IMG/VR virus record: IMGVR_UViG_3300045999_005852
Location: 1 to 29,335 of that record
Length of the DNA stretch: 29,335 bases
Source: a virus
Reading direction: 5' to 3' (one strand)
Position 1 is the stretch's first letter, and every line of letters starts with the position of its first letter. Below the pieces are notes generated by a model that was not told where the DNA came from, made no database searches, and saw nothing but the letters and a program-made list of their open reading frames with translations. The translations under genes were made by a program, and so were the position numbers. Of this stretch, positions 483 to 27,910 are shown one piece after another.

Positions 483-1373
483 TTAAAAAGATAATGCTTG
501 ATTAATACGGAAAGTAAAATTATTAACAACTGCTTGTATATCACTAGCACTAATAGGTAAACTAGCGGCTGAGGGGGAACTACCTGTTCTGCTTAATAAT
601 GTTGTTATAGCTAAAAGATTAGCTGAGGATCCAGTAGCATATAACGCTGCTCCCTGACCTTGAAGATTTAGACTAGCTGACCAAACTATAGTATCAAATA
701 CTGAACCCCAGTTTGGGTGGCCAAATAACATATATACATCACAAATATTAGGGTCAGTAGCTTGTCCATAAGTTTGTCTATAATAAGCATATGTTGTGAA
801 TCCATTAACAATTGATCCTGTATATATGCTTCCAGTTAATATATTACCTGATCCATCTGCTCCAATATTACCTGCTTTTTGGAATCCTATAGGGCCAGAT
901 CCACTTCTTGCTCCTATCATTGTTAAAGGATGATATATAGCACTTTGTGCTGCTGGGAATGTACCAGCTGATTGAGTATATCCAAAACTAATGTAGTAAT
1001 AATTAGTATCTGTTAATGTAGCTGATTGGCTTGAATAAGGTAAAGATGGTGGGATTGGAATAGCAGTAGATCCAGGATTTGTATAGTTTGTATTAGCACG
1101 TAACCAAGGAGCTGTTGTATTTCCTCCATCAAACATATCTTGACCTCCATCACTTATGTTGTAAGCATTACCATCTAAACGATATATAAAAAATTCAGGA
1201 TTTCTAAATTCAGTAACATATCCTCGAAGATAAGAAGCAATAGTTGTAAGTTGTGACCAGGGTGGTCCAATTAGTGGTGATGATGTTAAAAATAAAGATA
1301 TTTGACCTAATCCACTTACATTTTGGAAAGATGTAACACCTTGATTATTTGTATTTCTTAATTCAATAGGCAT
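483..1373 (-). CDS. Putative virion adhesin/fibre-associated protein
   Basis: A 296-residue protein without a family I can name. It is rich in Ser, Thr, Asn, Gly, Tyr and aromatic residues and has no signal peptide or membrane segment, a composition typical of beta-rich phage tail or fibre proteins. The N-terminus is MPIELRNTNNQGVTSF. The ATG overlaps the stop of the preceding fibre gene by one base (TAATG), so the two are probably translationally coupled, and an SD-like GGAGGA lies about 9 bp before the start, inside that upstream gene. Position between two fibre-type genes suggests a tip, adaptor or accessory adhesin. The function rests on context and composition only. Confidence 0.6.
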   Translation of the reverse strand: MPIELRNTNNQGVTSFQNVSGLGQISLFLTSSPLIGPPWSQLTTIASYLRGYVTEFRNPEFFIYRLDGNAYNISDGGQDMFDGGNTTAPWLRANTNYTNPGSTAIPIPPSLPYSSQSATLTDTNYYYISFGYTQSAGTFPAAQSAIYHPLTMIGARSGSGPIGFQKAGNIGADGSGNILTGSIYTGSIVNGFTTYAYYRQTYGQATDPNICDVYMLFGHPNWGSVFDTIVWSASLNLQGQGAALYATGSSANLLAITTLLSRTGSSPSAASLPISASDIQAVVNNFTFRINQALSF

Positions 1374-3100
1374 TAATAAAATCCTCCGTCAATATAACTA
1401 GCAGTACTAGCAAAAGAAGCACTCACTGCTTGTAAAACATAAGAAGCAGTTACAGCATTTGTAGCCCAACTTGCTGTACCAAATAATGAACTTGTAATAC
1501 CTCCACCTGTTACATTTAAACTACCTGTTAAAATAGAAGATCCAGTAATAATCAAACTACCTGTTACTATTAAGGTATCAGCGTTACTTGAGAACAATGT
1601 TGTTCCTGTAGCCCCAGAAAAATTAGTAGAACCAGTAACTGTTAAACTTCCTGATATAACAGCACTACCTGTAAAAGGAAATGTTGGGCTTCCAACAGCA
1701 GATGAAGCTGTATAATATAATTGTCCTGAAGCAGTATCTATAGTTATAACATTAAGTTGTGTCGTTGTAGTTAAGTTTGGGAATCCTACTGTGCCTGATA
1801 CTTGTAAATTAAAAGAAGGTGTGGCAGTACCTATACCAAATCTAGATTGAGATGTAGCTGTCCACGCAGGTATTGAACTAGTGATTAATAATTGAAAACT
1901 ACTAGTTGCATTATTTCTTAGATACCAAGAAGCTGCACCTGCTGAGCCAAAAACTATACTAGAAGTATTAGCGTTTGTTCCAGTAGTGTATGGGTAGAGA
2001 TATAAAAAGTTGGTTCTAAAACCAATACCATTTGTTCCTCCACCAGCAGCGGCTTGAAGAGGGATACTAGTACCTGCGAAAGGAGGTGTTGTTTGGCCAC
2101 CACCATCAAACCAAGTTAAACCACTAGAGCTAATATAGAATCGAACTGATCCGTTAGTTTCAATATGAAGATTTTGAGCATCATTTGTTCCTAACATTGC
2201 TGTAGCACCAAAGCTATTGCCTCCTTGTATGAAGGCATTAGGAACAAAACTAGCAGTTAGTGCTTGAGAAGCACTTTGAGCCCAACTACTAGTACCTAAG
2301 AAACTACCTGTAAAACTTCCACTAAATGATCCTGTGTTATATGAGGCTGTAAAAGTATTTATGCTTGAAGTAAAAGCATTAAAGCTAGAAGTAGTTACTA
2401 ATCCACTAGTATCTGTTGTTCCACCTGATCCTGTGTTAACAGTTATTGGGAAAGTTGACCCATCACCTTTTGTGAAGGTTATAGTATTTAAGATAACAGA
2501 GGCGGTAGTTAGTAATGATCCAGTATTTATAGTAGATCCATTAACAACATACTCCGCCCAACTAGCGGTGCCAAATAAACTACCTGTAAAGCTACCAGTG
2601 AATGAACCTGTATTGTAAGAAGCTGTAAAAGTATTTATACTTGAAGTGAATGCGTTAAAGCTAGAAGTTAATATAAATGTTCCAGATACAGCTGTAAAAA
2701 TAGGATCAGTTTCTTTATAATATGAAGCTGTTATAGCTTGAGAAGCACTTTGGGCCCAACTTGCTGTTCCATTAAAACTACCAGTAAAACTACCTGTAAA
2801 TGACCCAGTGTTATAAGATGATGTAAAATTGTTTATACTTGAAGTAAACGCATTAAAACTTGAAGTGGTTACTAATCCACTAGTATCAATAGGTCCACTT
2901 CCTCCACTTCCTGTGTTAACAGTTATAGGGAATGTTGATCCATCTCCTTTAGTAAAAGTAATAGTATTAGAAGAAACAGAAGCTGTTATAAGTAAAGAAC
3001 TAGTGTTAACAGCGGCAGCTGCATTTTCAGCATATGAAGCTGTTAAAGCGTATGAAGCTGATAAAGGATTGGTTAATTGTTCTTTTCTAATTATACTCAT
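1373..3100 (-). CDS. Repetitive tail fibre/adhesin protein
   Basis: A 575-residue Ser/Thr/Ala/Gly-rich protein. The N-terminus carries SASYALTASYAENAAAA, a repetitive pattern seen in many fibres of environmental phages. The first half holds three near-copies of a module with SSFNAFTSSIN, SYNTGSF, TGSFTGSF and ASWAQSASQ, plus two copies of a NTITFTKGDGSTFPITVN block. A later segment reads RFGIGTATPSFNLQVSG, resembling the GIGT-x-x-P segments of other fibre proteins. The C-terminus ends TASYIDGGFY, and no S74-type chaperone peptidase is visible. No helix-rich or membrane region is seen, so a trimeric beta-structured fibre is likely. It follows the gp15-like gene after a 2-bp gap. Confidence 0.8.
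   Translation of the reverse strand: MSIIRKEQLTNPLSASYALTASYAENAAAAVNTSSLLITASVSSNTITFTKGDGSTFPITVNTGSGGSGPIDTSGLVTTSSFNAFTSSINNFTSSYNTGSFTGSFTGSFNGTASWAQSASQAITASYYKETDPIFTAVSGTFILTSSFNAFTSSINTFTASYNTGSFTGSFTGSLFGTASWAEYVVNGSTINTGSLLTTASVILNTITFTKGDGSTFPITVNTGSGGTTDTSGLVTTSSFNAFTSSINTFTASYNTGSFSGSFTGSFLGTSSWAQSASQALTASFVPNAFIQGGNSFGATAMLGTNDAQNLHIETNGSVRFYISSSGLTWFDGGGQTTPPFAGTSIPLQAAAGGGTNGIGFRTNFLYLYPYTTGTNANTSSIVFGSAGAASWYLRNNATSSFQLLITSSIPAWTATSQSRFGIGTATPSFNLQVSGTVGFPNLTTTTQLNVITIDTASGQLYYTASSAVGSPTFPFTGSAVISGSLTVTGSTNFSGATGTTLFSSNADTLIVTGSLIITGSSILTGSLNVTGGGITSSLFGTASWATNAVTASYVLQAVSASFASTASYIDGGFY
2240..2960 (-). repeat. Three near-copies of a fibre module within one gene
   Basis: Three imperfect direct copies of a module of roughly 110-180 bp lie near 2250-2430, 2560-2680 and 2740-2890. 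Each encodes a FNAFTSSIN / YNTGSF / GSFTGSF / SWA block. Differences at synonymous positions show that the copies are not brand new. Such arrays can change length by recombination. Boundaries are approximate. Confidence 0.7.
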
Positions 3101-6118: not shown

Positions 6119-7495
6119 TTAAGAAAGTGAAGCTGATCTCCATCGTCCTCCCATATAAACATATATAAAGAAGTTTGATCCAGTTTGTGCGAAAGCAACT
6201 TGTACATTAGTATTTCCGGTAGGGGTTGTATTTATAATACTAGCACTAGCTGATGTAAATCCATATATGTTTGGAGTATTATATTCAATAGCTACACTAT
6301 TGTTAGAACGATAAATAATTCCATTTTGCCAGTCTATAGCAGCATGATCATTAGTGTTGTAAAGAGTTCTATTTCCCCAATCTATAGATCTATTAGGTGA
6401 ATTATCATATATTACTTTATTTTCCCAACTTACAACTTCTACTTCAGTAGAGTCTTTAAGAACTCTATCATTCCATAAAACAGATCCAGTACCATTACTG
6501 TCATTTAAATAACCAGTATTTGTATCTAATACATTATAAGTTCCATCATTTATAATTAATGATCCTGATGTAGTAACACTACCTGTTATATTTAAGCTAC
6601 CTGTTACTGTAGAAGTTCCTGTAGTAGTAGTAGATCCACTCACACTAATACTTCCTGTTGTGTTGATAGATCCAGTTATGTTTATAGATCCAGTTGTATT
6701 TATATTACCATTTGTGTTAACAGATCCACTAGTATTAATAGAGCCAGTAGTATTAACATTACCTGTAGTATTAATAGAACCTGATGTATTAATAGAGCCA
6801 GTTGTGTTTATAGAACCTGATGTATTGATAGAGCCAGTTGTATTAACATTACCTGTAGTGTTTATACTACCGCTTGTATTTATTGAACCACTAGTATTAA
6901 TAGAACCATTTGTATTAATAGATCCAGTGGTGTTAATAGAACCGCTAGTATTAATTGATCCACTAGTGTTAATCGACCCACTAGTATTAATAGATCCAGT
7001 TGTATTTATATTACCATTTGTGTTAACAGATCCACTAGTGTTAATAGATCCAGTAGTGTTTATACTACCGCTTGTATTAACAGAGCCTGTGGTGTTAACA
7101 TTACCAGTAGTATTTATACTACCGCTTGTATTAACAGAGCCTGTGGTGTTATTACTACCACTCCCAATAACTCCTCCTCCATTAATAGAAATACCGCCAG
7201 GTACAGCTGAAATAGTTATTGATTCAGATCCGCTTTTTATAAATTTAATGGATCCTTCAGATACATAAATATCTTTCCAAGCCGCTGTTTCTGATCCTAA
7301 ACTAAAAGATGAAGTAGTTTCACCTACTCCTACAGCAGGAATAATACTACCTGAAATTAAAATAGATCCTGTTATGGTTTGATTACCAACAAAATTATTT
7401 GATCCAGTAGTTGCATCACCTTTAGGGCCTTGTATACCTCGAGGGCCTGGGGTGTTTATGGTTATTATTCTAGGTGTTTGGTTTGCTGATGTCAT
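6119..7495 (-). CDS. Collagen-like, hexapeptide-repeat tail fibre protein
   Basis: A 458-residue virion protein, probably a trimeric fibre. Residues about 15-28 hold a short collagen-like run, GPRGIQGPKGD. Then come fibre-like segments (ILISGSIIP, SETAAWKDIYVSEGSIKF). Residues about 117-280 are some 27 uninterrupted copies of the hexapeptide G-[S/N]-[I/V]-N-T-[S/T/N], a period fitting a left-handed or triple beta-helix shaft. The C-terminal part (about 330-458) is not repetitive, contains recurring I-D/E-W-x-N/G units (SIDWGNRTLY, AIDWQNGIIY) and ends in a compact Gly/aromatic segment (IYVYMGGRWRSASLS), a likely receptor-binding tip. It is preceded by a small virion protein gene with a 4-bp gap and followed by a terminator. 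Confidence 0.8.
   Translation of the reverse strand: MTSANQTPRIITINTPGPRGIQGPKGDATTGSNNFVGNQTITGSILISGSIIPAVGVGETTSSFSLGSETAAWKDIYVSEGSIKFIKSGSESITISAVPGGISINGGGVIGSGSNNTTGSVNTSGSINTTGNVNTTGSVNTSGSINTTGSINTSGSVNTNGNINTTGSINTSGSINTSGSINTSGSINTTGSINTNGSINTSGSINTSGSINTTGNVNTTGSINTSGSINTTGSINTSGSINTTGNVNTTGSINTSGSVNTNGNINTTGSINITGSINTTGSISVSGSTTTTGTSTVTGSLNITGSVTTSGSLIINDGTYNVLDTNTGYLNDSNGTGSVLWNDRVLKDSTEVEVVSWENKVIYDNSPNRSIDWGNRTLYNTNDHAAIDWQNGIIYRSNNSVAIEYNTPNIYGFTSASASIINTTPTGNTNVQVAFAQTGSNFFIYVYMGGRWRSASLS
6655..7148 (-). repeat. About 27 tandem 18-bp units coding for hexapeptides
   Basis: Tandem degenerate 18-bp units encode G-[S/N]-[I/V]-N-T-[S/T/N]. Third-position variation is frequent, so the peptide is kept while the DNA has diverged. 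A higher-order pattern is visible: units carrying GNVNTT and GNINTT recur between runs of GSINTS/GSINTT. The repeat also keeps the opposite strand open, creating a false plus-strand frame. Confidence 0.9.
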
Positions 7496-8669: not shown

Positions 8670-10340
8670 TTAGAGGGTATTCAAACCGCTAACTAATACT
8701 TTACCATAGAATTCAGGACGTAACATCTTCTTAGCATAGCGAGTCAACAGACCTTTACGTGGAGTGAAGGTGTTTGGATCGTAGATAAGAGGTGTCATGA
8801 TCAATGGAATGTAAGGAGCAAATACAGCACCTGCTTCCAAGAATTGCTTACCGCGGAAACCTAATAAGATAGTATTTTCAGTCATGTAAGGATTCTTATA
8901 AACAGTGTAACGGCTGTTGAATTGACCTGCTTTTTGTACACCAAATGCATATTCCATATCAGCAGCATCACCATTGCTGTTAGCAGCGAATCCAGGGATA
9001 GACTCGATGATTGTAGCTACAGTTGGAGAAACTACCATGAAGTTAGCACCACCACGAAGGGTTAATTGGTGAATACGATTGCTGATCTTTTGAAGTTTAG
9101 TACCAAGAGTTTGGAACCATCCACCTTGAGTGTTATAGAAACCACCACCAGCTACAGTTGCAGCATCAAAAGCGGTTTTTGTAGCGTTAATAAAGTTATT
9201 ATTAACAGCACTCCAGTACTCAACGTTAGTTGTTGGAACATCTGCGATCAACATATCAAGGATTTCGAGGTCGATTTCCAATGAGATGTACTCACTCATG
9301 ATGTTAGTCAATTCAGCTTCAGCATCCAAGTTTTGGTAAGCATTCAAGTCTTGAGCAAATTCAGGAGTCCATACAGCCTTCAACTTTTTAGTCTTAGCGG
9401 TGATGGCTTGAGATTGCATAGAAATGTTAATTTCTGGGATAGAAATTGTGCTATTGCTTTGAGCGTTAGGTGTAGAGTAAGTAGGTAAAGTTGTATTTGT
9501 TGGATCTTCAAAATCACCACGAGCATTATCAGCTGTTTTCTTGTTGTAGAATACAATCACAGATGAACCTTGAATAGGAGCAACTGAAGCAGATACAACA
9601 AAGATTACATTAGTACCATCAAATGTAGTGAATGCTGGTAAGTTATCAGCAACACTTAAAGTAGCGGCAGATTGTGAAACAATGAAACCACGTACTGCGT
9701 CTGGGTCATAACCTGAAAGGCTAGATACAGGTACAGATATTGTTTTGTAACCATTAGCTGCTGCTGATGCTGAAAAATCTGAATCAAAGTTAAGGGTTTT
9801 CCAAGTAGCTGATCCAGTTGTTGCTACAGCTGAAGCTGAGAATTGGTTAGTAGAGTAAGTAAAACGACCAGCGCCATATAAACCACCAGCAGTAGCTGTA
9901 GTTGAGAATGGTGTGTTTGGATCACTAGCATTACGAGTACCATACATAGAACCACCTGAAGTGAATGGATTCTTAGTAGTACCATATTGGAAATCTAAGA
10001 AGAATACCAGACCTGAAGGTAAGTTCATTGGTTGAACGCTAACGAATTCTTTTGCTGCGATCTGACCAAATACCTTACGTACTAAAGGAAGTGCAATACC
10101 AGCCCAGTTTTCACCATTTGTACCAGAGCTAAAAGAAGACTGAGTACCGGTCTGAGATGCTTCTACTACTAATTGCTTTGCTTGGTTTTCCAACATCAAA
10201 GCCATGTTGTTCTTGTTGACGTCTTCACCAAGACCTTCCAAAAGGCCGGTTTTTTCCCACTTGTTTGCTAATTTAGCAGCATCACCTTGAAGTGATCTCC
10301 ATGGGTTGGCAGACTCAACTAATTGTTGAATTGTTTCCAT
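8670..10340 (-). CDS. Major capsid protein (T4 gp23-like)
   Basis: A 556-residue HK97-fold capsid protein of the T4 gp23 type. Recognisable blocks include an N-terminal KWEKTGLLEGLGE (compare NKWKPLLEGEGLPE in gp23) and VSVQPMNLPSGLVFFLDFQYG at about 103-123 (compare VQPMNSPTGQVFALRAVYG). The N-terminal 60 residues are the probable delta peptide: QLVVE|AS at residues 56-62 sits where gp23 is cut after residue 65 (FLTE|A). A Ser/Ala/Thr-rich segment (about 140-290) likely forms the insertion and surface domain. It is preceded by the scaffold gene with a 38-bp gap and followed by a strong terminator, forming a two-gene unit. Codon use appears less AT-biased than its neighbours, as expected for a highly expressed gene. 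Confidence 0.95.
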   Translation of the reverse strand: METIQQLVESANPWRSLQGDAAKLANKWEKTGLLEGLGEDVNKNNMALMLENQAKQLVVEASQTGTQSSFSSGTNGENWAGIALPLVRKVFGQIAAKEFVSVQPMNLPSGLVFFLDFQYGTTKNPFTSGGSMYGTRNASDPNTPFSTTATAGGLYGAGRFTYSTNQFSASAVATTGSATWKTLNFDSDFSASAAANGYKTISVPVSSLSGYDPDAVRGFIVSQSAATLSVADNLPAFTTFDGTNVIFVVSASVAPIQGSSVIVFYNKKTADNARGDFEDPTNTTLPTYSTPNAQSNSTISIPEINISMQSQAITAKTKKLKAVWTPEFAQDLNAYQNLDAEAELTNIMSEYISLEIDLEILDMLIADVPTTNVEYWSAVNNNFINATKTAFDAATVAGGGFYNTQGGWFQTLGTKLQKISNRIHQLTLRGGANFMVVSPTVATIIESIPGFAANSNGDAADMEYAFGVQKAGQFNSRYTVYKNPYMTENTILLGFRGKQFLEAGAVFAPYIPLIMTPLIYDPNTFTPRKGLLTRYAKKMLRPEFYGKVLVSGLNTL

Positions 10341-10378
10341 AATTTTAAAAAAATTGATTTAATTGTTAATGTTAATTT

Positions 10379-11665
10379 TTACTTTTTGAGGCCAGCAAGT
10401 CTTTGCATACGTGCAAAAGCTTCATTAGCTTCAATAATTGGTTGTTTAGGGGTAGCAGTTCCGATTGTTTTAGAAGCTGATCCTAATGATTCTTTAATTT
10501 GATTCTTTTTAGCTGTAGTAGCTTTAAAAGATTCAGTTAAAGTTTCGAATACGAGCTTAACTTCTTTAACAGTTTCTGCTTTGTCAAACGTGTTTAAAAC
10601 CTTGATTTTTTCTGATTCGGTAAGATTCTTAGCTTTGAAGATTTTGTTGGTGTAAAGAAGCTTAGCGTTTAATAGATTAACTTCATTGAGTTCATTACGA
10701 AGCTCAGCTATAGCTGCATATGCTTCTTCAAGTTCAGTAGAGTCAATTTCACCAAGAGCAATATTACCACTTGATACTCCACTACCTATAGCCGCTAATC
10801 CTTTTAAATTTGGATCAACATTATATTTAGTGTAAGCATATGTTAGACTTTTAACTAAATCAGCTGCGTCATCTTGTAAATTGAATTCTTTTGCTCTTGA
10901 TCTGAATTTTAAAATTAATTCAGTCATTTTCTTTTGAATTTCAACTTCTTTTTCTTTGTCTTTAGCTGTTTTAGCTTGTTCTAATTCATCCATCAGTTTT
11001 ACTACTTCAGGCTGGCTAAAAAATGTTTCTTGGGCTTTAACATATCTTTTATCTTTAAATACCCCAGCTACTTTATCAGCTATTTTTTTAGCTATTCCAA
11101 ATACTCCTTCTTTCATAGGTGTTTCTTCTTCTTCCATAGAATTCATTTCAGCAAGGAGTTCTTCAAGATTGATTTCTTCATCAATATCTTCAACTTCTTC
11201 ATCATCCATGTCTTCCATGTCTTCCATTTCTTCTTCTTCACCTTCTTCTTCGCCTTCACCAGGCATAAGCTTACCAGATGCGATCATGTCATCAATGACT
11301 TGCATAACGAGTTCTTCAATTTCTTCGTCAGACATTTCTTCAAGCATTAGATCTTCATCTAATGACTCTTCAGTCATACCTTCCTCTTCCATTGGTTTCT
11401 CGTTACCTTCTTCCATTGATAACTCGGCAAGAATTTCTTCAAGATTAAAATCTTCTTCTAATCCTTCTTCTTCCATGCCGTACATTTCATTCACACTCTC
11501 TTCAGTCACTTCTTCCTCTAATTCAAGCTCATTTAACTTTTCAGCAAACATAGCAGTGAGTTGGGGAGTAAATGCTTCTTCGAGAGCTACTTTTGCGCTT
11601 GCGATTGCTGTTTCTCTAATGGTTTTAGCATCAGCAATGCATTCTTTTAGCATTTCTCTGTTCAT
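10379..11665 (-). CDS. Prohead scaffold/core protein (T4 gp22-like) with C-terminal tag
   Basis: A 428-residue acidic, helical protein immediately before the capsid gene, the position of T4 gp22, the main core protein on which the head is built. I choose the ATG at 11663-11665, with GAGG a few bases upstream; the frame is open a little further to a TTG at 11674, which is less likely. Residues about 35-180 are extremely Glu/Asp/Met-rich; about 205-270 and 310-400 are charged coiled-coil-like helices. The C-terminus is distinctive: IIE (410-412), A, then NEAFARMQRLAGLKK (414-428). This matches the MQKLAG leader at the N-terminus of other proteins in the window, and the preceding IIE|A fits a gp21-type cleavage site. 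The family assignment rests on position, composition and this pattern rather than on strong sequence identity. Confidence 0.8.
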   Translation of the reverse strand: MNREMLKECIADAKTIRETAIASAKVALEEAFTPQLTAMFAEKLNELELEEEVTEESVNEMYGMEEEGLEEDFNLEEILAELSMEEGNEKPMEEEGMTEESLDEDLMLEEMSDEEIEELVMQVIDDMIASGKLMPGEGEEEGEEEEMEDMEDMDDEEVEDIDEEINLEELLAEMNSMEEEETPMKEGVFGIAKKIADKVAGVFKDKRYVKAQETFFSQPEVVKLMDELEQAKTAKDKEKEVEIQKKMTELILKFRSRAKEFNLQDDAADLVKSLTYAYTKYNVDPNLKGLAAIGSGVSSGNIALGEIDSTELEEAYAAIAELRNELNEVNLLNAKLLYTNKIFKAKNLTESEKIKVLNTFDKAETVKEVKLVFETLTESFKATTAKKNQIKESLGSASKTIGTATPKQPIIEANEAFARMQRLAGLKK

Positions 11666-11692
11666 TGTCCTCAAATAAATTTGTTTTGGAAA

Positions 11693-11712
11693 TACGTTTA
11701 ATAGAAAACGTA
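11693..11712 (-). promoter_or_regulatory. Hairpin in scaffold leader
   Basis: Perfect 7-bp inverted repeat TACGTTT (11693-11699) / AAACGTA (11706-11712) with a 6-base loop, 27 bp before the scaffold ATG. If transcribed it would form a small stem-loop in the mRNA leader. No T-run follows, so it is not a terminator; it could stabilise the messenger or bind a regulator. Confidence 0.35.
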
Positions 11713-11731
11713 ATAGATTGTTAACTAATTA

Positions 11732-11758
11732 ATGCTACATAAGGGGAAAGGGTAGCAT
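11732..11758 (-). promoter_or_regulatory. Second inverted repeat in the scaffold upstream gap
   Basis: ATGCTAC (11732-11738) pairs with GTAGCAT (11752-11758) around a 13-base purine-rich spacer (plus strand). It lies in the 197-bp gap between protease and scaffold, which also holds a terminator, the AT-rich run ATATACATATATATGG and the hairpin at 11693. This is the longest non-coding gap in the window and probably contains the promoter for scaffold and capsid. Confidence 0.3.
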
Positions 11759-11803
11759 ATTTGCATATACATATATATGGATCTATTAAAAGTTACATTT
11801 TAG

Positions 11804-11834
11804 TAAAAAGAAATGCCTCACTTTTGTGAGGCAT
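11804..11834 (-). terminator. Terminator after prohead protease
   Basis: Perfect 9-bp stem ATGCCTCAC (11813-11821) / GTGAGGCAT (11826-11834) with a TTTT loop. On the minus strand it is followed by TTCTTTTTAC. It lies 29 bp past the protease stop and closes the long unit that begins near 19627. Confidence 0.88.
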
Positions 11835-11862
11835 CAGTCTTAAAATGCTATTTTAAGAGGGG

Positions 11863-12474
11863 TTAAAATATTGGGCATGTTCCATTAGCACAAAGTATGT
11901 CTGTGATAATAGAATTAACTTTATTATATTGATTATATTGTTGAGGTGTTTTAGATTCATTCATCATGCCTTTTTCTTTCATATATGAACCTGGGTTTGA
12001 TGGGGTTGATACAAAGTCCCAACATAGTAATTCAAAGTCATCTTGTACTTCCATCAACTCACCCATTTGTTTTAATGAGCCCATACCACGTGATGATACA
12101 CCTACTGGAATGTTATTTTGGAATAAAGCAGATAATATATTACCTGAAGGTGTAGGTAGGATTTCTATTGCTCCCATTATATTATCTCCATCCCACCATA
12201 TTTTTTTAATGTTATGAGAGACATTTTTTAGGTTAATAATAGAAGAATCAGGGTGATCTAGTTCACCTAATGCTCTATTAGCATTAACACTTTCCATATA
12301 CTTATCAATTTCTCTTTCCCATAAGTCTCTTGAGTAATAACGACCATTACCGTTTTTTACTTCAACAGTAGCTAATATTCCTTGAACTAATATATTACCA
12401 TTACTACCTTTACCTTCAACTAATTTGACAGGTTTAGCAGAGAATGTTTGAGTCTCAATAAGTATCTGTTTCAT
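11863..12474 (-). CDS. Prohead maturation protease (T4 gp21-like)
   Basis: A 203-residue serine protease of the T4 gp21 / herpesvirus-assemblin-like fold that matures the prohead by cutting after (I/L)-x-E. Expected signatures are present: NGRYYSRDLW (43-52), ALGELDHPD (68-76) with catalytic His74, GVSSRGMGS (125-133) with the catalytic Ser at 127/128, and WDFVSTPSNPGSYM (152-165). The extreme N-terminus has ILIE|T and KLVE|G (residues 4-8 and 17-21), possible self-cleavage sites; T4 gp21 also processes itself. The gene follows three core or assembly genes, as gp21 follows gp67/gp68 in T4. Its likely substrates here are the capsid protein, the scaffold and the MQKLAG-tagged proteins. Confidence 0.93.
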   Translation of the reverse strand: MKQILIETQTFSAKPVKLVEGKGSNGNILVQGILATVEVKNGNGRYYSRDLWEREIDKYMESVNANRALGELDHPDSSIINLKNVSHNIKKIWWDGDNIMGAIEILPTPSGNILSALFQNNIPVGVSSRGMGSLKQMGELMEVQDDFELLCWDFVSTPSNPGSYMKEKGMMNESKTPQQYNQYNKVNSIITDILCANGTCPIF

Positions 12475-12476
12475 GA

Positions 12477-13268
12477 TTATCCTTCATATTTGCTTTTTAA
12501 AGCATTTTCTACTTCATTTTTATACTTACCTTTATATGTTTTTAAAAAATCATCTACACTATCATATTTATTTTCATCATATGCTTCATCAGCAGCATCT
12601 AAAGCAGCTTTAAGTTCAGGTTGTTTAACTTCATCTAATACTTCTTTAACTAATAAGTAGATTTGAGAACGCAATACTGATTCTTTTAAATCACCATAAC
12701 CTGAAGATTTATGTGGGCCTGTGATAGGTTTTGATTCACCCAATCCAGGTGCTTCAGTTGTGTAACCTACACCTTTAATACCAAATTGACCATCTTTAAC
12801 ATAGTGACTAAGATCTTTAGCTAAGTTTTTAGCTACAATTGCTCTTAATTCTTCTACTGTTTTACCTTCATTTTTAGGATCTTGCATTTCAGTATAGAAT
12901 CCTTTTAAGAATTCTTCACCAAATACATTATCATAGTTTTTAGCATCTTTATAGTCATAACCACGTGTTGCCATGTCAGTTACTTCTTTAGTGGTTTCTT
13001 TTTCTTCAGCTTTAGCTTCTTTTTCTTCTTTAAGATTAGTCATATTCTCATTAAAGATAGAATGCCAATCTTGTTTTTTACCGGTAGTAACTAAACCACC
13101 TATACCTTCAGATAAGATACTTTTATTTTTTAATACAGTAATAGTATCATTATATGATAATACTGGAGTGACAAGGTCTGGGAAGTTGTAGCGAGCAAGT
13201 TTCATAAAATATGCTTTATTGCCTTTGCCTTCTTTAATAAGGTTATATTGTGTTTGAAGTGTTTTCAT
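12477..13268 (-). CDS. Prohead core/assembly protein, gp67/gp68 position
   Basis: A 263-residue soluble protein located between portal and protease, the position of small prohead core proteins in T4. It begins MKTLQTQYNLIKEGKGNKAY, with a KLARYNFPDLV segment and then VLKNKSILSEGIG, a pattern I associate with conserved head-module proteins of environmental T4-like phages. The middle (about 85-110) is highly charged (KEEKEAKAEEKETTKEV). The C-terminal half is helical and acidic (LKAALDAADEAYDENKYDSV). ILSE|G (residues 51-55) fits a gp21-type cleavage site. It is tightly packed: 2 bp to the protease gene and 2 bp to the gene upstream. The role in the core is inferred from position. Confidence 0.6.
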   Translation of the reverse strand: MKTLQTQYNLIKEGKGNKAYFMKLARYNFPDLVTPVLSYNDTITVLKNKSILSEGIGGLVTTGKKQDWHSIFNENMTNLKEEKEAKAEEKETTKEVTDMATRGYDYKDAKNYDNVFGEEFLKGFYTEMQDPKNEGKTVEELRAIVAKNLAKDLSHYVKDGQFGIKGVGYTTEAPGLGESKPITGPHKSSGYGDLKESVLRSQIYLLVKEVLDEVKQPELKAALDAADEAYDENKYDSVDDFLKTYKGKYKNEVENALKSKYEG

Positions 13269-14660: not shown

Positions 14661-16550
14661 TTATTCTCGTATTTGAGATTCATCTAATAATGAAGATTCT
14701 TCTTTTTTAAGTGATAATCTTTTATCTAAAGTCTCTAATAAAGTTTTATTTTTATCTTTAGTTTCTAGAGCAAGTGGTGATCCACCTTTGAAATTATTTT
14801 TTAAAGAACCATCTTCACCTGTAGCATCTCCTTTCTTCATACCGACATTACCTAATCTATCTTTACCTAAAGCACTTTGTTGTGTACCAGCAATAGATGC
14901 TTTTTCTTTAGGTCTTCCTAGAGGTTCATCTTTATCATAACCATCAGGAACACCAATTCCATTTCTTCCAGAACCATATAAAGCAGCTAAATCATGAGGT
15001 GTACCATATGACTTACCTGATTCAAGTGGATCATTACCTTCATTTTCAATTTGTTTAAATCTAAAGATACGCTTTTGATCCTCAGCGATTAAGTCTCTAT
15101 ATTCATCATATTGATCTTGGCTTAAATGGAATATATTATCATAAACCCAATCTGTTGGTAACAACTTACCATCAACAATATTTTTAGCTAATTCTACTTT
15201 TTCTTTCATTAAAGCTATTCTTTCTTGATCGTAAATGATTGAAGGAGTAGTTAATGAAATTTCAAAATTAGTTAATGCTTCATTTCTATATCCTTGAGTA
15301 TACAAGTGAACTAAAGCAATTTTATTTAATTCTGAAAGTATGATACGTTGTATACGATCAATTGTACGAGCAAAACGAATATCTTCAGCTGCTAAAGTAG
15401 CTTTACCAGTTAAGTCTTTTTCATAACCCATAAACGCTTTAGGTACTTTTAAAGCAGCAAATAATTTGTCTCTTAAATAAACTACATCTTCAATTGCTGT
15501 GTAATCTAAACCTTTAGTAGGTTCAATTCGAGTTGTTTGATCATTTCCTCTAACAGGTATAAAGAAATCTTCTAATGAATTTTGCAGATTATATTTTAAA
15601 TTATATTCACCAGTTTGTGGGTCAATATATGGAGTTCTCTTCATCTGTGAAATAGTCTTTTGCATAAAGTTTTCTACCTCATTAGGTGGAATAGAACCTA
15701 CATTAACATAAAAAATTCTCTTTTCTGGAGCACGAACAATACGATGGATCAACATAGCATCTTCCATCAAAATATATTGTTTAAACAATTTACGAGCTGG
15801 TTCAAGATATGAACGACCATAAGGCAGATAATTCACATCAGTAATTAATCTGAAATGAGCCATTTCATAATTATCAAAATAAATTGATGAGTCATTTTTG
15901 TTAGTACTGTAAGTACCTTGTCCTGTCACACCATAAAAACCTGTAGCACCACCTGAGAAACCATCTGGGCTAAATCTGTATCTTACTTCAGCTGGGGCTG
16001 CTGGGTCGTAATGTTCTTCTCTCATAATATGGTAAGCAGTGTATGGAATAACGTTATAAACCCCAAATTTCTCCGCAATTTCCAGTTTTAAAAAGAAGTC
16101 ACCATACTTACACATTTGGCGAATCCAAGACCATAAATTAAATTCAATGTTTAATACATCATAGAATAAATTATATAGAATTTTTTGTGTATCTTCGTTT
16201 GAACTTCTAATTTGAAGTACTTCACCCATATCATTTTTAAGAGTACATTCATCTGCTATAATATCAAGAGCAGAAGCTACAATAGCATCTGTATCCATTG
16301 CGTCATAATCTGAATATACTTGGGTACGTAAATATCTCCAGTTAAGGTTTAATTGGGCTCCAAAAAGTGATGTGCTGTTACTAGAGTAGATACGATTGAA
16401 TCTATCCACTAACGCGTTAGTTTGGAATTCGCCTGTTGATTGGATGCTATTTACATCCATTACTTTGAGCTGATTACCACCAGCATTACGAATTATTACA
16501 TCTGTTGAGAATAATTTCCTTAATCTTGAAAAAACACTTGTATCAGCCAT
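14661..16550 (-). CDS. Portal protein (T4 gp20-like)
   Basis: A 629-residue portal of the T4 gp20 type, forming the dodecameric channel at the head vertex used for DNA packaging and tail joining. Visible family features: N-terminal FSRLRKLFS; a clip/wing region; NSLEDFFIPVRGNDQTTRIE followed by LDYTAIEDVVYLRDKLFAAL, KVPKAFMGYEKDLTGKATLA and DIRFARTIDRIQR, which are core portal motifs. The C-terminal 100 residues are low-complexity, Lys/Gly/Ser-rich and probably disordered (SAIAGTQQ-type linker, then KNKTLLETLDKRLSLKKEES). T4 gp20 is about 524 residues, so the C-terminal tail is an extension. It lies directly after the terminase with a 26-bp gap. Confidence 0.93.
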   Translation of the reverse strand: MADTSVFSRLRKLFSTDVIIRNAGGNQLKVMDVNSIQSTGEFQTNALVDRFNRIYSSNSTSLFGAQLNLNWRYLRTQVYSDYDAMDTDAIVASALDIIADECTLKNDMGEVLQIRSSNEDTQKILYNLFYDVLNIEFNLWSWIRQMCKYGDFFLKLEIAEKFGVYNVIPYTAYHIMREEHYDPAAPAEVRYRFSPDGFSGGATGFYGVTGQGTYSTNKNDSSIYFDNYEMAHFRLITDVNYLPYGRSYLEPARKLFKQYILMEDAMLIHRIVRAPEKRIFYVNVGSIPPNEVENFMQKTISQMKRTPYIDPQTGEYNLKYNLQNSLEDFFIPVRGNDQTTRIEPTKGLDYTAIEDVVYLRDKLFAALKVPKAFMGYEKDLTGKATLAAEDIRFARTIDRIQRIILSELNKIALVHLYTQGYRNEALTNFEISLTTPSIIYDQERIALMKEKVELAKNIVDGKLLPTDWVYDNIFHLSQDQYDEYRDLIAEDQKRIFRFKQIENEGNDPLESGKSYGTPHDLAALYGSGRNGIGVPDGYDKDEPLGRPKEKASIAGTQQSALGKDRLGNVGMKKGDATGEDGSLKNNFKGGSPLALETKDKNKTLLETLDKRLSLKKEESSLLDESQIRE

Positions 16551-16576: not shown

Positions 16577-18148
16577 TTACAGTAACCACCTTATATCTTC
16601 ACCTTGCCCACCTATATTCATCTGATATGGGTTAGGGGTACCATTCATAGTGTAGTTACCTTGAGGATTTGGTCTAATTGTAGCCATATTACTTAAAGCA
16701 GCACGTGTTAAATCCAAACCTTGTGTTTTATATTTTAAAGCAGTGTCACGAACATACATTCCAATTGCAAAACTCATAACTAAGTCATCATTATAACCAG
16801 ATTGTGCTTCAGGTCTGCCATTTCTCCATATAAACACCTTCATTTCTTCAAGAAGACGTTTAGATTGTATAGTTACACTTTTATCTCCAACGTATTCTCT
16901 AAATTTATTCACAACTAACGGACGAGTTCTCATAGACATTGTAAAACCTGGTGTCATTCTTGATGGATCATCTGTTCTTTCTAGGTAAGTTTCTGCATTT
17001 AATGTCTCACTTTTTGGAGAATAATACAAATTTCTGTATCCTCTTTCAATAATTGAGTCAAGAGTTGACCATCCTATGTTAGCATTTTCAACAACTAGCA
17101 ACGCATCATTATATTCTGTTGCGATACTTACTAGTAAATAACCAAATTCTTTTGGTGATATTTGGCTTTTATATTCAGCAACTTGTGTATTTAATTCAGT
17201 ATCTATAACGTGAAACGTTGAAAAGTCTTTACCATCTCCACGAGCTACGTCAGCAACTACCATATAACTTCGTGTATAATCTGGCAACTCCCATATCCAT
17301 AAGTTATGGTCTATGCCGCGCTTTTCCAAAGGATCTTTAACAGAAGTTGCAAAGATAAAGTCTAATTGTTCACTATAAAATACTGTATCGCCTGAAGTAT
17401 TAAAGTCACAGTCACATTCTTGTGCCGCTAATCGTGGATCTCCTAATAATTCATCTTGCTTTTTTCTCCAATTTTCATCACGTTCAGGATGAACATACCA
17501 TGGAAGTTTGATAGGTAAGAAGTCATTTTGTTGTGCTTCTGCTCTAACCCATGTTTGATGAAACCAATTACCAGTACCGTATGGAGTAGATAATACAATT
17601 GCTCCACCACCAGTTGCTAAGGTTTGTTGAGCAGATGCCCATATTTCAGCTATACCTTCAATAAAAGCAGCCTCATCTATGATTAGAAGTGATACTGCTT
17701 CTGATCGACCCGCATCACCTGCTGCTGAAACTGCTTTAATTTGAGAACCATTATTTAATCGTAACGTTAATTTATTGTTTTCTTCCGCGGGTATTTTAAG
17801 CCAAGAAGGTAAGTTTTCAAACATGAATTTGACTTTTGTCACCATGTTTTTAGCTGTTTCTTGTTTAGTAGCTATACAAAGAACGTTTTTGTCTTTTTGG
17901 AATGTCATTAACCATAATGAATAACCTGCTACTAAAGTTGATATACCCAATTGTCGAGACTTAAGTACTATGTCGTATGGATGATCTCTCCATAGACGTA
18001 GTACTTTTTCTTGAAATGGATACAAGTTGAATATAATTCTGCCACGAGTTGGGTGTTGAATATGGCAGTATTTCTTCATAAAGTGTGCCGGATCTTGGGC
18101 GCACTTTAAGTATTCATCTCGTATTATTTGTTTTAAGTCTTGACTCAT
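16577..18148 (-). CDS. Terminase large subunit (T4 gp17-like)
   Basis: A 523-residue packaging motor. The ATPase domain has Walker A SRQLGIST (64-71) and Walker B LLIIDEAAF (154-162); LSTPYGTGNWFH (186-197) is the coupling region. The nuclease domain carries the three acidic sites: VVADVARGDGKDFSTFHVID (297-316, Asp300), LLVVENANIGWSTL (350-363, Glu354) and GYNDDLVMSFAIG (451-463, Asp454/455), matching D401, E458 and D542 of T4 gp17. Length is slightly below T4 gp17 (610), mainly at the N-terminus. No small terminase subunit is recognised nearby; the gene directly before it encodes a Lys/Glu-rich protein. An AGGGAC sequence 6-11 bp before the ATG is a possible SD. Confidence 0.97.
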   Translation of the reverse strand: MSQDLKQIIRDEYLKCAQDPAHFMKKYCHIQHPTRGRIIFNLYPFQEKVLRLWRDHPYDIVLKSRQLGISTLVAGYSLWLMTFQKDKNVLCIATKQETAKNMVTKVKFMFENLPSWLKIPAEENNKLTLRLNNGSQIKAVSAAGDAGRSEAVSLLIIDEAAFIEGIAEIWASAQQTLATGGGAIVLSTPYGTGNWFHQTWVRAEAQQNDFLPIKLPWYVHPERDENWRKKQDELLGDPRLAAQECDCDFNTSGDTVFYSEQLDFIFATSVKDPLEKRGIDHNLWIWELPDYTRSYMVVADVARGDGKDFSTFHVIDTELNTQVAEYKSQISPKEFGYLLVSIATEYNDALLVVENANIGWSTLDSIIERGYRNLYYSPKSETLNAETYLERTDDPSRMTPGFTMSMRTRPLVVNKFREYVGDKSVTIQSKRLLEEMKVFIWRNGRPEAQSGYNDDLVMSFAIGMYVRDTALKYKTQGLDLTRAALSNMATIRPNPQGNYTMNGTPNPYQMNIGGQGEDIRWLL

Positions 18149-18170: not shown

Positions 18171-19064
18171 TTAAGCAATAATATCAGATATTAATGCTTT
18201 AAGATCCTTACCACCATCTTTAAACAACTTTTTAATTTCTGGTTTAACAATGAGTTGTTTAACAATAGCAATATTATCTTTGGTTGGGTTAGCTAATTTT
18301 TTCTTGATACCAGCTTCAAGTTTATCTAATTTAGCTTTTTCTTCATCAGATAATTTTTTAGCGAATTTATCTGTGTTAAATTCTTTATCAATTTTCTTTA
18401 ATTCTGCCTCAGATGGTGCTTTTTCATCAGTTGAATCTTCATCTTCATCTTCTGCTTTTTCAGCTTTCTTAGGTTCTTCTTTTTTAGGAGCAGGTTTTTC
18501 TTTTTTAGGTTCTGCTTTCTTTTCAGCTTTTTTAGGTTCAGCTTTTGGTTTGTCTTCTGCTTTTTCTTTTGGAGCTTTTTCACCTTTTCCTGCTTCAAGA
18601 TAATCAGTAAATTCACCACCTTCTTTTTCTAAAGCACCACGTGTTTGTGGATTGTTATAAGTGGCTATATCTTTACCTGTTTCCTTAGATAATGCTTTTA
18701 AATCTACTTCATCTTTAGCACGTAATATTGATAATATTTTACCTAAAGCACTCTTATCAAATTTATCACCTTTAGCTTTTTGATATTTAGCTAAAGCTGA
18801 TTTGAAGCCTGCTTTATCTTTTACTTTATAGAATGAAGCCATTTCCATAAGTGCTTCTTCTGCTTCTTTAAGACCAGCCATAGCCATAGCTAAATCGGTG
18901 GAATCACCTTTTTCAGCTTTAGCAGTTGCGTCTTTTATTTTTTTCAAATATGATGGATCTTGTTGGATTTTATCATCAACTTGTTTTTGAGTTTTAGGAT
19001 CAGTTTCACTTAATATTTCAACAATGTTGTCTTCAATGTGTTTTTTTAATTCAGAGATTTTCAT
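18171..19064 (-). CDS. Lys/Glu-rich protein with amphipathic N-terminal leader
   Basis: A 297-residue highly charged protein. Residues 1-20 (MKISELKKHIEDNIVEILSE) form an amphipathic helix ending I-L-S-E followed by Thr, which fits a gp21-type cleavage site. Residues 21-150 are helical and soluble (KGDKFDKSALGKILSIL). Residues about 150-220 are a low-complexity Lys/Glu/Pro/Ala tract (repeats of KKAEPKKEK type), then an acidic run EDEDEDSTDE. The C-terminus (225-297) is helical and lysine-rich. It could be a DNA-binding internal head protein, a core component or a terminase helper, since it stands just upstream of the terminase gene where T4 has gp16. No family is recognised. A TATAAATAT motif is 25 bp upstream. 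Confidence 0.6.
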   Translation of the reverse strand: MKISELKKHIEDNIVEILSETDPKTQKQVDDKIQQDPSYLKKIKDATAKAEKGDSTDLAMAMAGLKEAEEALMEMASFYKVKDKAGFKSALAKYQKAKGDKFDKSALGKILSILRAKDEVDLKALSKETGKDIATYNNPQTRGALEKEGGEFTDYLEAGKGEKAPKEKAEDKPKAEPKKAEKKAEPKKEKPAPKKEEPKKAEKAEDEDEDSTDEKAPSEAELKKIDKEFNTDKFAKKLSDEEKAKLDKLEAGIKKKLANPTKDNIAIVKQLIVKPEIKKLFKDGGKDLKALISDIIA

Positions 19065-19701: not shown

Positions 19702-20094
19702 TTAATTTAGTTGATCTACAGTAAATCCTAATTTACTAGCTGTTTCTTCTTTATTTGCTGTAAGTTCTTCCATATCATCAGGACCAGCATATTCACTCTC
19801 GTATGTGTTTAATCCAGCATATTTGTCAACTAACTCAAAATATTCAGGTCCTTTCATTTGAGTGATTTTTGCTTTGATTTGCTCTTTTTCTTTTTCAGCA
19901 TTATCCATTATATCAACTTCTTCTCCAGTTTCATCATCTGTGAAAGTACCATATCCTTGATCAGCTGTGTAGTGGTAATCAATATAATCTTTTATTAAAG
20001 ATAATAAATTTTCAGATTCATTTAGTGATTTATTCATTTGGTTCTCAGTGATCAAACCAGCTAATTTCTGCATTTTGAGGAACTCTCTATTCAT
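19702..20094 (-). CDS. MQKLAG-tagged small acidic protein (putative internal head protein)
   Basis: With the start set at the ATG at 20092-20094, the protein has 130 residues and begins MNREFLKMQKLAGLITENQM. The frame is open 21 codons further (to 20157), but that extension is AT-derived, lacks the shared leader position and overlaps the upstream gene, so I reject it. The first 17 residues closely match those of the protein starting at 21114. L-I-T-E|N at 14-18 fits a gp21-type protease site. The rest is acidic and helical (KDYIDYHYTADQGYGTFTDD, KEKEQIKAKITQMKGPEYFE), with no known family. By analogy with the capsid-targeting leaders of T4 internal proteins, it may be packed into the prohead and trimmed. 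That role is inference. Confidence 0.65.
   Translation of the reverse strand: MNREFLKMQKLAGLITENQMNKSLNESENLLSLIKDYIDYHYTADQGYGTFTDDETGEEVDIMDNAEKEKEQIKAKITQMKGPEYFELVDKYAGLNTYESEYAGPDDMEELTANKEETASKLGFTVDQLN
20044..20094 (-). repeat. Leader-peptide repeat, copy A
   Basis: Coding DNA for the MQKLAG leader. It matches copy B (21064-21114) at about 80% of positions, with an identical 18-bp core at 20069-20086 and 21089-21106, and resembles copy C (27404-27454). The similarity extends to DNA level, suggesting duplication of a leader cassette. Confidence 0.8.
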
Positions 20095-20427: not shown

Positions 20428-21114
20428 TTAAGCAATTTCAATCCCTGCTCTTTCTATAGCATTATAGATATTTTTTACTAACTCTTTCTCTTGATTAGTC
20501 CAAGTACTGTCATCATATGAGTTAGCTTTATTACCAAGAACATTAAATAATTCATTTAAAAAATCCATATATGTTTCTTGGTTTAAAGATCCACCAGACA
20601 TTTGATTTCCAAATTTACTATTTCCATAAGCTTCTAAAGCTTTACGAGCCTTAGTAAAATTTCCACCCATAGCATCTGCTACTGAGTCTACTAAATCTGT
20701 ATTTTCCATTTCATCATATAATGATTCAAGATCTGTAACAGGGTAAGGAGTTTGAGAGATAATTTTTTCAATAGTATCAAAATCACTTTGATTTTCATTT
20801 ACTTGACCTTCAGATATTGAATCAAAATATTCAGGCACATATTCAACTCTAGTTCCTTCTTCATTTTCCATTTCCTCTCCAACTTTCATTACTTCATCCC
20901 CAGCATGAATTAAAATCTCTCCCTTAGGAGCATTATAATCAGGATCATGAGCTACCATCGCTCCACTTTTATTAGGTGAATTATAAACTAGATACCAATC
21001 TACATTAGATGTATGAGTTGGTTGGAAATAATCTTCATTTTCAGTTAATTGCTTAAATTGACCTTCAGTAATAATACCAGCCATTTTTTGCATTTTGAGG
21101 AACTCTTTGTTCAT
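20428..21114 (-). CDS. MQKLAG-tagged acidic protein (putative internal head protein)
   Basis: A 228-residue protein beginning MNKEFLKMQKMAGIITEGQF. I-T-E|G (15-18) fits the cleavage rule of gp21-type proteases, so the mature form would start at residue 18. The remainder is acidic; a beta-rich part (about 35-95, with VDWYLVYNSPNKSGAMVAHD and GEILIHAGDEVMKVGEE) is followed by a helical part (about 115-228, e.g. DLESLYDEMENTDLVDSVAD). No catalytic motif is recognised. An ISE|G at 104-107 could be a second cut. Upstream lies a 21-bp repeat shared with the other tagged gene. I infer cargo of the prohead by analogy with T4 IPs and their N-terminal capsid-targeting sequences. Confidence 0.65.
   Translation of the reverse strand: MNKEFLKMQKMAGIITEGQFKQLTENEDYFQPTHTSNVDWYLVYNSPNKSGAMVAHDPDYNAPKGEILIHAGDEVMKVGEEMENEEGTRVEYVPEYFDSISEGQVNENQSDFDTIEKIISQTPYPVTDLESLYDEMENTDLVDSVADAMGGNFTKARKALEAYGNSKFGNQMSGGSLNQETYMDFLNELFNVLGNKANSYDDSTWTNQEKELVKNIYNAIERAGIEIA
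21064..21114 (-). repeat. Leader-peptide repeat, copy B
   Basis: Codes for the first 17 residues of the protein starting at 21114. It shares an exact 18-bp core with copy A and the motif GCATTTT-x-AGGAA with copy C. Confidence 0.8.
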
Positions 21115-24533: not shown

Positions 24534-25718
24534 TTAGGAGGCCAAATTCATTTTAATAGTATTGCCCCATCCATTTTCTTTGACTGTGTCTACATTCTCA
24601 CCATCTGCTGTGATAACCATTATGGTTGGTTTGAATGATTTAGCTGTGTTATGGCCTATATACCCATCAGTTAATATAATAAGACTATTAAATTCTCTAT
24701 GCTCATTAAAATATTCAATAAATGGATTCATGTTTGTTCCACCTCTACCTGTAACGAAATTAGGCATTTCACCTTTATATTCATAAATGTTATGAATACC
24801 AGCGTCACCTTCAGCTATAGTAATAGCAACTCCAGTTTTGTACATATGTTGTATTTCAGTAAAAAACTCAATTAAGTTTTTCTCACTGACTGAGCCTGAA
24901 GTATCAATACCTACAAGTACATTCTTTTTAGTTTTAATTTTTAAGGCAGGATTTTCTTGGAAACGTTTATTTAATTTACGTCTTGTTTTTTTAGTGTAGG
25001 TTCGAGTTGATGTTCCAGCAAATCTTCTAAAATATGATCTCCAATCATATGATGGTTCAGTTTCAGCTAATATACCATCTATAAAACTTTCTAACTCAGA
25101 TGGAACAAAACCTCTACCCTTATCTGATTGGCTTTTAAGTATTTCTTTAATTTGATGTTCAAGTTGTGATTTGGCTAATTTGGCATCAGCTTCACTTAAA
25201 CCATCAAACTCACCCCAAGTTGGATGTAAACCTTCACCTTTTAAACCATCCATTAATTGTTGTAGTTTTGGACTAGCTCCACTTTCTAAAGCTTGTTTTA
25301 ACAAACCATAATATACTTTAGTACCAGCTTTTAAAGGTAAATTAAGTTCAGGATATGAACTTGGTAATAGAAGATCTTTAGATGGATAATACTCCTCAGC
25401 TATGTATTGATTAATTTCAATATCAGCTGCTACATTATGTAATTCTTGATCTGGGTAATCATCTTTATCAAGGAGATGATTAAAGCAAATATGAAGCAAC
25501 TCATGTTTGAGTAGTCCTATTTTTGGTTTGTCTCCTTGTAATGAGTTCCAAAATTCTTCATTAACTGCTAATTGGTAGTTAATGCCTTGCAAACAAACAC
25601 CAGCTGTTGGTACATCTTTTCTAACTACTTTATTAAGAGTAGATAAGAATACACCATAGAATGGCTCACTAAGCATCAATTGCTTGCCAATTTTTGATAA
25701 GTCCTCGTGTATATTCAT
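24534..25718 (-). CDS. DUF2201-type metallopeptidase/vWA protein
   Basis: A 394-residue two-domain protein of the predicted metal-dependent peptidase family (DUF2201-like N-terminus plus vWA-like C-terminus). The N-terminal zinc motif is KHELLH (71-76), with NVAADIEIN (95-103) as a likely third-ligand helix. The C-terminal vWA domain has an apparently intact MIDAS: DTSGS (272-276), GGTNM (326-330) and TDG (350-352). The middle has a basic segment (YTKKTRRKLNKRF) around 241-253. It is paired with a MoxR ATPase, the common arrangement of this family in bacteria, where the proteins cooperate on an unknown substrate. A minus-strand TATAAATA precedes the gene. Confidence 0.85.
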   Translation of the reverse strand: MNIHEDLSKIGKQLMLSEPFYGVFLSTLNKVVRKDVPTAGVCLQGINYQLAVNEEFWNSLQGDKPKIGLLKHELLHICFNHLLDKDDYPDQELHNVAADIEINQYIAEEYYPSKDLLLPSSYPELNLPLKAGTKVYYGLLKQALESGASPKLQQLMDGLKGEGLHPTWGEFDGLSEADAKLAKSQLEHQIKEILKSQSDKGRGFVPSELESFIDGILAETEPSYDWRSYFRRFAGTSTRTYTKKTRRKLNKRFQENPALKIKTKKNVLVGIDTSGSVSEKNLIEFFTEIQHMYKTGVAITIAEGDAGIHNIYEYKGEMPNFVTGRGGTNMNPFIEYFNEHREFNSLIILTDGYIGHNTAKSFKPTIMVITADGENVDTVKENGWGNTIKMNLAS

Positions 25719-27217: not shown

Positions 27218-27910
27218 TTAAATTTGATCGATAAGATTGTTAATATACATTTTTATGTCTTCTTTTTCAAATCCATCTTGCATCCAATCTGTTGATAAAA
27301 TACGAAGTTTAGCTTTTAATGTTGCTAAATCTTGAATATTAGCTAATCCTTCTATACGATCAAATCCTTCAGTTAAAGGGTTTTTTTTTTGATTATATTG
27401 AGTCTCAGTAATAATACCTGCTAATTTTTGCATTTTAAGGAATGACTCATTCATAATGTTGTATTCTTTATCATTCTTTTCAGCATCTGCTTTTAATTTT
27501 GCTTCTTCATCATCTGACAATTTCATTTCATCCATGGTATATGTTTCGTCAACATATGTTTCATCCATTGTGTTCGCTGTTTCATCAACAGTTTCCTCTT
27601 TATCTGTTTCAGCATCAGTGGTTACTTCTTTGCCTTTGTTTTTCTTAGCTTTTTGCTTTTCTAATTTTCCTTTTTTATTTTTAAGGTCTTTTAATTTCTT
27701 TTTAAGCTCATTAATTTTACCTGTATCCATTAAATCCTTAACTTCTTCTAAGTTTTCAGCAGTAGCGATTTTTTCTTCACACATTTTAATAGCTTTGTCA
27801 TATTCAGCTAATCTAGCTTCCATGGCAGCGGCTTCAGCTACAGCTTCAATTTCTTTAATATGATCACCAACTGCTTCTCTTATGAGGGAACGTAATTTTT
27901 CTATTTGCAT
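27218..27910 (-). CDS. Charged coiled-coil protein with internal MQKLAG tag
   Basis: A 230-residue protein in three parts. Residues 1-30 are an amphipathic leader (MQIEKLRSLIREAVGDHIKE, then AVAE|A). Residues about 30-150 are highly charged: coiled-coil lysine runs (KKLKDLKNKKGKLEKQ) and then an acidic tract (ETDKEETVDE). Residues 153-169 are MNESFLKMQKLAGIITE, the tag that other genes carry at their N-terminus; an ATG stands at 27452-27454 at exactly this point. The final 60 residues are helical. It may be a fusion of a core-like protein with a tagged cargo, or two in-frame start sites may give a full-length and a 78-residue product. The codons after the tag contain ten consecutive A bases. 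Confidence 0.6.
   Translation of the reverse strand: MQIEKLRSLIREAVGDHIKEIEAVAEAAAMEARLAEYDKAIKMCEEKIATAENLEEVKDLMDTGKINELKKKLKDLKNKKGKLEKQKAKKNKGKEVTTDAETDKEETVDETANTMDETYVDETYTMDEMKLSDDEEAKLKADAEKNDKEYNIMNESFLKMQKLAGIITETQYNQKKNPLTEGFDRIEGLANIQDLATLKAKLRILSTDWMQDGFEKEDIKMYINNLIDQI
27381..27390 (-). other. Run of ten A bases in coding strand (slippage-prone site)
   Basis: Ten T bases on the plus strand give CAA AAA AAA AAC in the reading frame, containing the slippery heptamer A-AAA-AAC. A shift in either direction meets a stop within a few codons (about 3 for either), producing a truncated product ending just past the tag. Slippage is inferred only. Confidence 0.4.
27404..27454 (-). repeat. 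Leader-peptide repeat, copy C (internal)
   Basis: DNA coding for the internal tag of the protein at 27218-27910. It resembles copies A and B (GCATTTT then AAGGAA) but here lies inside a longer frame. Confidence 0.75.

Follow-up and report, generated by a model that had tools for sequence, protein, structure and literature searches.

Encapsulin cargo-loading peptides are short C-terminal sequences of the cargo that dock inside an HK97-fold shell, in a system that has neither a scaffold nor a protease. In phage T4, the targeting sequence CTS of IPI-IPIII and related internal proteins is a short N-terminal peptide that is carried by varied small proteins and ends in (L/I)xE, and the T4 protease gp21 cleaves after L/I-x-E (PMC9026906). 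The internal proteins co-purify with gp22 and are said to have affinity for the core (PMC9026906). According to a 2023 review, the sorting of proteins into the T4-type core is mysterious and the docking site of the targeting sequence is unknown, and other core proteins are said not to share the CTS (PMC9958956). The herpesvirus scaffold, with its M-site, has a body, a cut site and a short C-terminal peptide that binds the major capsid protein; the maturation protease removes this peptide and thereby frees the scaffold (PMC12474303). In 80alpha, a helix and hook made of the last 16 scaffold residues sits on the capsid protein; the SaPI1 protein CpmB copies this tail and competes for the site (PMC5644958). 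In P1, which has no separate scaffold, the N-terminal 30 residues of DarB suffice to bring a reporter inside the head (PMC9024508), and the Dar N-termini share no consensus.

The window (the whole stretch of DNA analyzed, 29,335 nucleotides) belongs to a T4-like phage (record of 29 kb), and its head genes are all located on the minus strand (Table 1). The protein encoded between the protease and the major capsid protein consists of 428 aa with a pI of 4.3 and 25% D+E, and begins at an ATG (MNREMLKECIADAK) that lies 9 bases downstream of the TTG start given in the ORF list. We assigned it as the scaffold based on its gene position, its very acidic composition and a weak profile match to the C-terminal region of T4-type gp22 (hhalign prob 20.8, E 0.0011, 65 columns); PHROG and Pfam searches with this protein returned zero matches. 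The same order of protease, scaffold and major capsid genes is found in Flavobacterium phage immuto and in Mel-JY01. Translation of positions 10382-10438 on the minus strand gives IIEANEAFARMQRLAGLKK followed by a stop, so the scaffold ends with IIE-A-peptide exactly where the earlier note had located it. The scaffold contains 26 [ILV]xE motifs including this one, and the remaining 25 are not accompanied by the tag. In such an acidic protein the motif alone is weak, and what gives it weight is its constant placement ahead of the tag in the relatives.

Table 1. Head genes, tagged proteins and leader sites; positions refer to the window unless another record is named.
Feature	Position	Strand	Remarks
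Large terminase	16577-18148	-	
Portal protein (T4 gp20 type)	14661-16550	-	PHROG 213, E 1.6e-59; alternative candidate docking partner
Prohead protease (T4 gp21 type)	11863-12474	-	PHROG 207 head maturation protease, E 2.6e-55
Scaffold-position protein	10379-11665	-	Between protease and major capsid genes
Low-confidence linker from three-helix domain to tail helix	10424-10516	-	Model residues 66-96, block pLDDT 50-61
Predicted prohead-protease motif IIE	10430-10438	-	Directly before tail peptide; E here in 116/120 tails
C-terminal peptide ANEAFARMQRLAGLKK	10382-10429	-	What a cut between IIE and A would leave; conserved in 120 distinct relatives
Predicted isolated helix EAFARMQRL, then non-helical AGLKK	10397-10423	-	H97-105, block pLDDT 61-69
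Major capsid protein (T4 gp23 type)	8670-10340	-	PHROG 138, E 9.8e-66; candidate docking partner
Tagged protein 1	20428-21114	-	MNKEFLKMQKMAGIITE, predicted cut before G, then cargo domains A and B; tag 21076-21102
Tagged protein 2	19702-20094	-	MNREFLKMQKLAGLITE, predicted cut before N, then cargo (weak Pfam DUF7438 match); tag 20056-20082
Core-like acidic coiled-coil protein	27218-27910	-	Internal tag NESFLKMQKLAGIITE, predicted cut before T, at 27416-27442, then variable domain
Type 2 leader sites	27949-28329; 18171-19064; L255 867-1154; G001-G007		
Type 3 leader sites	immuto NC_055915 1794-2315, 103785-104351, 118629-118928; L158 6170-6496		

A relaxed-motif scan of the window in six frames found exactly four copies of the peptide, one in the scaffold (10391-10417) and one in each of three other proteins. 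Their common core, F-x-x-M-Q-K-L-A-G, is found at the start of tagged proteins 1 and 2 and inside the core-like protein, where it sits about 155 residues in; thus, the earlier description of three tagged leaders holds for the first two, and the third tag is internal. The proposed match between FARMQRLAG of the scaffold and FLKMQKLAG of the leaders was confirmed by alignment, with scores of 42, 39 and 47 for tagged protein 2, tagged protein 1 and the core-like protein, respectively, against a mean of about 15 for shuffled tails, which reached the observed score in 0, 1 and 0 of 2000 cases. The best other ORF in the window scores 19, compared with 33-41 for the tagged ORFs. A profile built from the cargo leaders alone picks up scaffold C-termini on other contigs (E 1.2e-7 on that of L006 and 5.2e-7 on that of L075). 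In relatives such as these two the tail is AFLRMQKLAGII, which is nearer to the leaders than the window's own tail. The peptides are short (9-12 residues), and one could suspect a chance likeness of two short helical, basic sequences; this is excluded, with negligible residual probability, by the shuffle tests, by the leader-only profile matches (E ~1e-7) and by conservation of the peptide at well over a hundred loci. The helical amphipathic moment of the tail is no higher than that of its shuffles.

Pfam and PHROG searches gave no usable match for the function of the cargo. Tagged protein 1 is an apparent fusion of two cargo domains, with ISE and VNE motifs at the junction, and its domains A and B are encoded by separate tagged genes in relatives. 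The AlphaFold model of the core-like protein has low confidence beyond the coiled coil.

Two scans of viral contigs yielded 160 scaffold loci with 120 distinct scaffold tails, the consensus of which is xR(M/W/F)Q(K/R)LAG(I/L). Within these tails R and A are invariant (120 each), and Q (116), L (116), G (118) and the E of the cut motif (116) are nearly so. The peptide is kept by every scaffold with a readable end except that of L167, in which it breaks off mid-word; this loss is likely a frameshift or a sequencing error, since WQKLAGIIK is encoded there in another frame. The peptide also ends the scaffold-position proteins of Microcystis phage Mel-JY01 (VVERMKKLAGIVK) and of a 484 kb uncultured phage (MKSRMQKLADIS), and a less close end, NDLKRLAGIKK, is found in Agrobacterium phage Atu_ph07. 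Two N-termini of Atu_ph07 (MNIDKLKKLAGIKK and MDIERLKILAGLEN) resemble the tail with modest scores (33 and 26 of 53) and without a cut site, and we take them as no more than a lead.

The 91 leaders are similarly conserved (M 91, Q 91, A 90, G 90). It could be argued that the likeness reflects shared descent only, the leaders having captured the 3' end of the scaffold gene and the peptide now being a mere removable spacer. A universal tail with sporadic leaders is what one would expect if leaders derive from the tail; however, across the many cargoes that carry the 91 leaders M, Q, A and G hardly vary, a sign of selection on the peptide as such, and this makes the explanation highly improbable.

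The present tag shares with the T4 CTS its short length and N-terminal position, the varied small proteins that carry it, an (L/I)xE end, a gp21-type protease and T4-like head genes. Unlike the CTS, it equals the C-terminus of the scaffold and occurs C-terminally and internally too, whereas the CTS of T4, MKTYQEFIAE, has no detectable similarity to the gp22 tail. The leader profile had zero matches in T4, and the CTS used as a query matched T4's own leaders only. T4, P-SSM3 and Mel-JY01 yielded no leader resembling the tail, and an extension of the tag to all T4-like phages was rejected on these grounds. Between the protease and scaffold genes of Mel-JY01 there is another gene (L134 9750-10916), the product of which looks by eye ADP-ribosyltransferase-like in its C-terminal part and would recall T4 Alt.

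By using a core profile that lacks the TE residues, we placed 167 distinct copies of the peptide in the fetched loci and analyzed the position of the cut motif relative to each. C-terminal copies have [ILVM]xE within 9 residues before the tag in 64/65 cases and N-terminal copies within 6 residues after it in 86/91 cases (partly built in, as ITE-containing leaders were used to fetch these loci; the C-terminal figure is unaffected), against background rates of 0.28 and 0.18. Internal copies have the motif after the tag in 11/11 cases and before it in 10/11. Because the sequences are related, the binomial values (1e-34 and smaller) serve only as description. The leader form is LAGII-TE followed by cargo, as compared with LAGII-K-stop in many scaffolds. 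A protease motif thus separates tag from body in either orientation, as the earlier note had claimed; its term 'mirrored' fits the placement of the tag and the side of the cut site but not the direction of the peptide, which reads N-to-C everywhere. The layout is that of the herpesvirus scaffold, with no sequence relation implied.

The presence of (I/L/V/M)xE within a few residues of nearly all copies could also mean that the peptide is a recognition element of the prohead protease, an exosite tag for nearby bonds, and not a location signal. This seems rather improbable, given that the cut site precedes the tag in some proteins and follows it in others, that the 25 other scaffold motifs and the motifs of the capsid protein have no tag, and that two other types of leader (see below) have the cut motif without the peptide.

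The placement of the tag varies within a single protein family. Relatives of the core-like protein in L233, L249 and L289 stop right after the tag, with NES-FIRMQKIAG-IIK-stop or FLKMQKIAGLIK-stop, as the scaffold does, while in the window and in L244, L277, G001 and G007 an ITE comes after the tag and precedes domains that vary among the phages. A protein of 806-927 aa in G003 and G004 carries a tag at each end. Judging from these arrangements, the C-terminal, internal and double-ended tags would look like a movable module. These doubly tagged proteins (G003 82101-84518 and G004 116474-119254) belong to a set of large proteins of 800-940 aa, together with one in G002 (9995-12823) that has a tag at its N-terminus.

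The scaffold tail is probably the original element and the leader its copy or mimic, as suggested by their distribution rather than by a phylogenetic test: the tail is universal, and the leaders are sporadic and absent from several long contigs. None of the leader-bearing contigs with a readable scaffold is without the tail, so the pattern that was named beforehand as a refutation, leaders without a scaffold tail, is not seen. The reverse is seen in contigs of 157, 162, 126, 114 and 101 kb, which may be incomplete, and in Mel-JY01 (190 kb), all of which have the scaffold tail and no matching leader.

One cargo domain can carry different leaders in different phages. In the window, domain A of tagged protein 1 comes with the MQKLAG leader, but in L255 it comes with MKISELKQIIKEEIIKVLTE and in L264 with a leader similar to that; the cargo of tagged protein 2 has the leader MENFNLKKFLVENKLTTNSRLLNE, of type 3, in L158. 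A type 2 leader, MKxSELKQIIKEEIxKVLNE, is common on other proteins of these phages and usually ends in (I/L/V)xE; a type 3 leader, MENFDLKKFLVENKLTxNSKxLxE, occurs in the immuto clade, with three copies in immuto (Table 1). Neither type showed resemblance to the scaffold tail when compared with it. Since leaders unlike the tail occur on the same cargo, several docking routes probably exist, tail mimicry being one route into the head among others.

The covariation between tails and leaders proposed as a check in the earlier note turned out to be weak. The similarity is 36.1 within genomes and 34.7 across genomes (permutation p 0.08, n=8 genomes), immuto, whose tagged proteins include gp083 (111675-112139) and one at 25055-25453, alone shows a clear own-genome match (40.5 vs 29.2), and the changes of scaffold M to W or F are not copied by the leaders. 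Recruitment of cargo by mimicry of the tail is in line with the shared peptide and with the retention of the tail with or without tagged leaders, but it does not extend to the other leader types, which are unlike the tail.

An AlphaFold2 model of the last 110 residues of the scaffold (m933cb2af7587, 24 sequences) contains a confident three-helix domain, a linker, a short helix and a non-helical end. The predicted layout, a linker followed by a short terminal helix, is that of capsid-binding scaffold C-termini, with moderate confidence in the tail. A fold search with the C-terminal domain gave no match at E 0.001 or better. In the 80alpha tail, NLAEIARQKRIIKN, the hydrophobic residues are spaced from IIK equally to those of VxRMQKLAGIIK, which we regard as a post hoc lead. 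The 80alpha/SaPI1 pair resembles the present case in that a second protein shares the C-terminal peptide of the scaffold (PMC5644958). CpmB, however, alters the capsid size and keeps its tail C-terminal, whereas the present tag moves to the N-terminus together with a cut site and likely serves cargo.

Taken with the conservation and the cut-motif geometry, it is probable that tail and tag are a shared docking peptide of the prohead, releasable by the protease and bound at a common site. By analogy with herpesvirus and 80alpha, the docking partner would most likely be the inner face of the major capsid protein, with the scaffold core as the main alternative. Docking on the scaffold core or the portal, with cargo joining the core before the shell closes, would agree with the co-purification of T4 internal proteins with gp22 and their described core affinity (PMC9026906), as well as with the tag on a second core-like protein. 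The scaffold C-termini of herpesvirus (PMC12474303) and 80alpha (PMC5644958), however, bind the capsid protein, and we consider core or portal docking unlikely, if still the more serious competitor.

Under the preferred reading of docking on the shell, F/V-x-R/K-M-Q-K/R-L-A-G-I/L would be a portable prohead-docking helix. The scaffold would bear it on a flexible linker and hold the shell, most likely at the inner face of the major capsid protein, and other proteins that acquired the same peptide would occupy the same kind of site during prohead assembly. The peptide would be placed N-terminally with a cut site after it, C-terminally with a cut site before it, or internally, flanked by two cut sites; the active prohead protease would then cut between peptide and body, freeing scaffold fragments and cargo from the shell. 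The tagged proteins are probably packed into the head. It can further be speculated, with a slight leaning in its favor, that the peptide is a position-independent, releasable address for the prohead interior, serving the scaffold as anchor, a second core protein as tail and cargo as removable leader, and that packaging evolved by copying the anchor, with phages exchanging the leader on a given cargo for at least two other types.

The finding that tag and scaffold tail are identical appears to be new, because reviews leave the core sorting of T4 unresolved and describe the CTS as absent from other core proteins, and a literature search for the letters of the peptide found no paper. As the tag and the scaffold end are one sequence, whatever holds the scaffold tail should also hold the cargo tag, which makes the binding site directly testable. 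The peptide also provides a sequence handle for detecting, across many uncultured phages, proteins that are packaged in the head and probably injected, and possibly a route to load chosen proteins into such heads. Elsewhere in the window, the proteins encoded at 6119-7495 and 1373-3100 contain many (I/V)NT(S/T/N)G and TGSF(T/N)GSF repeats and are probably fibre-like.
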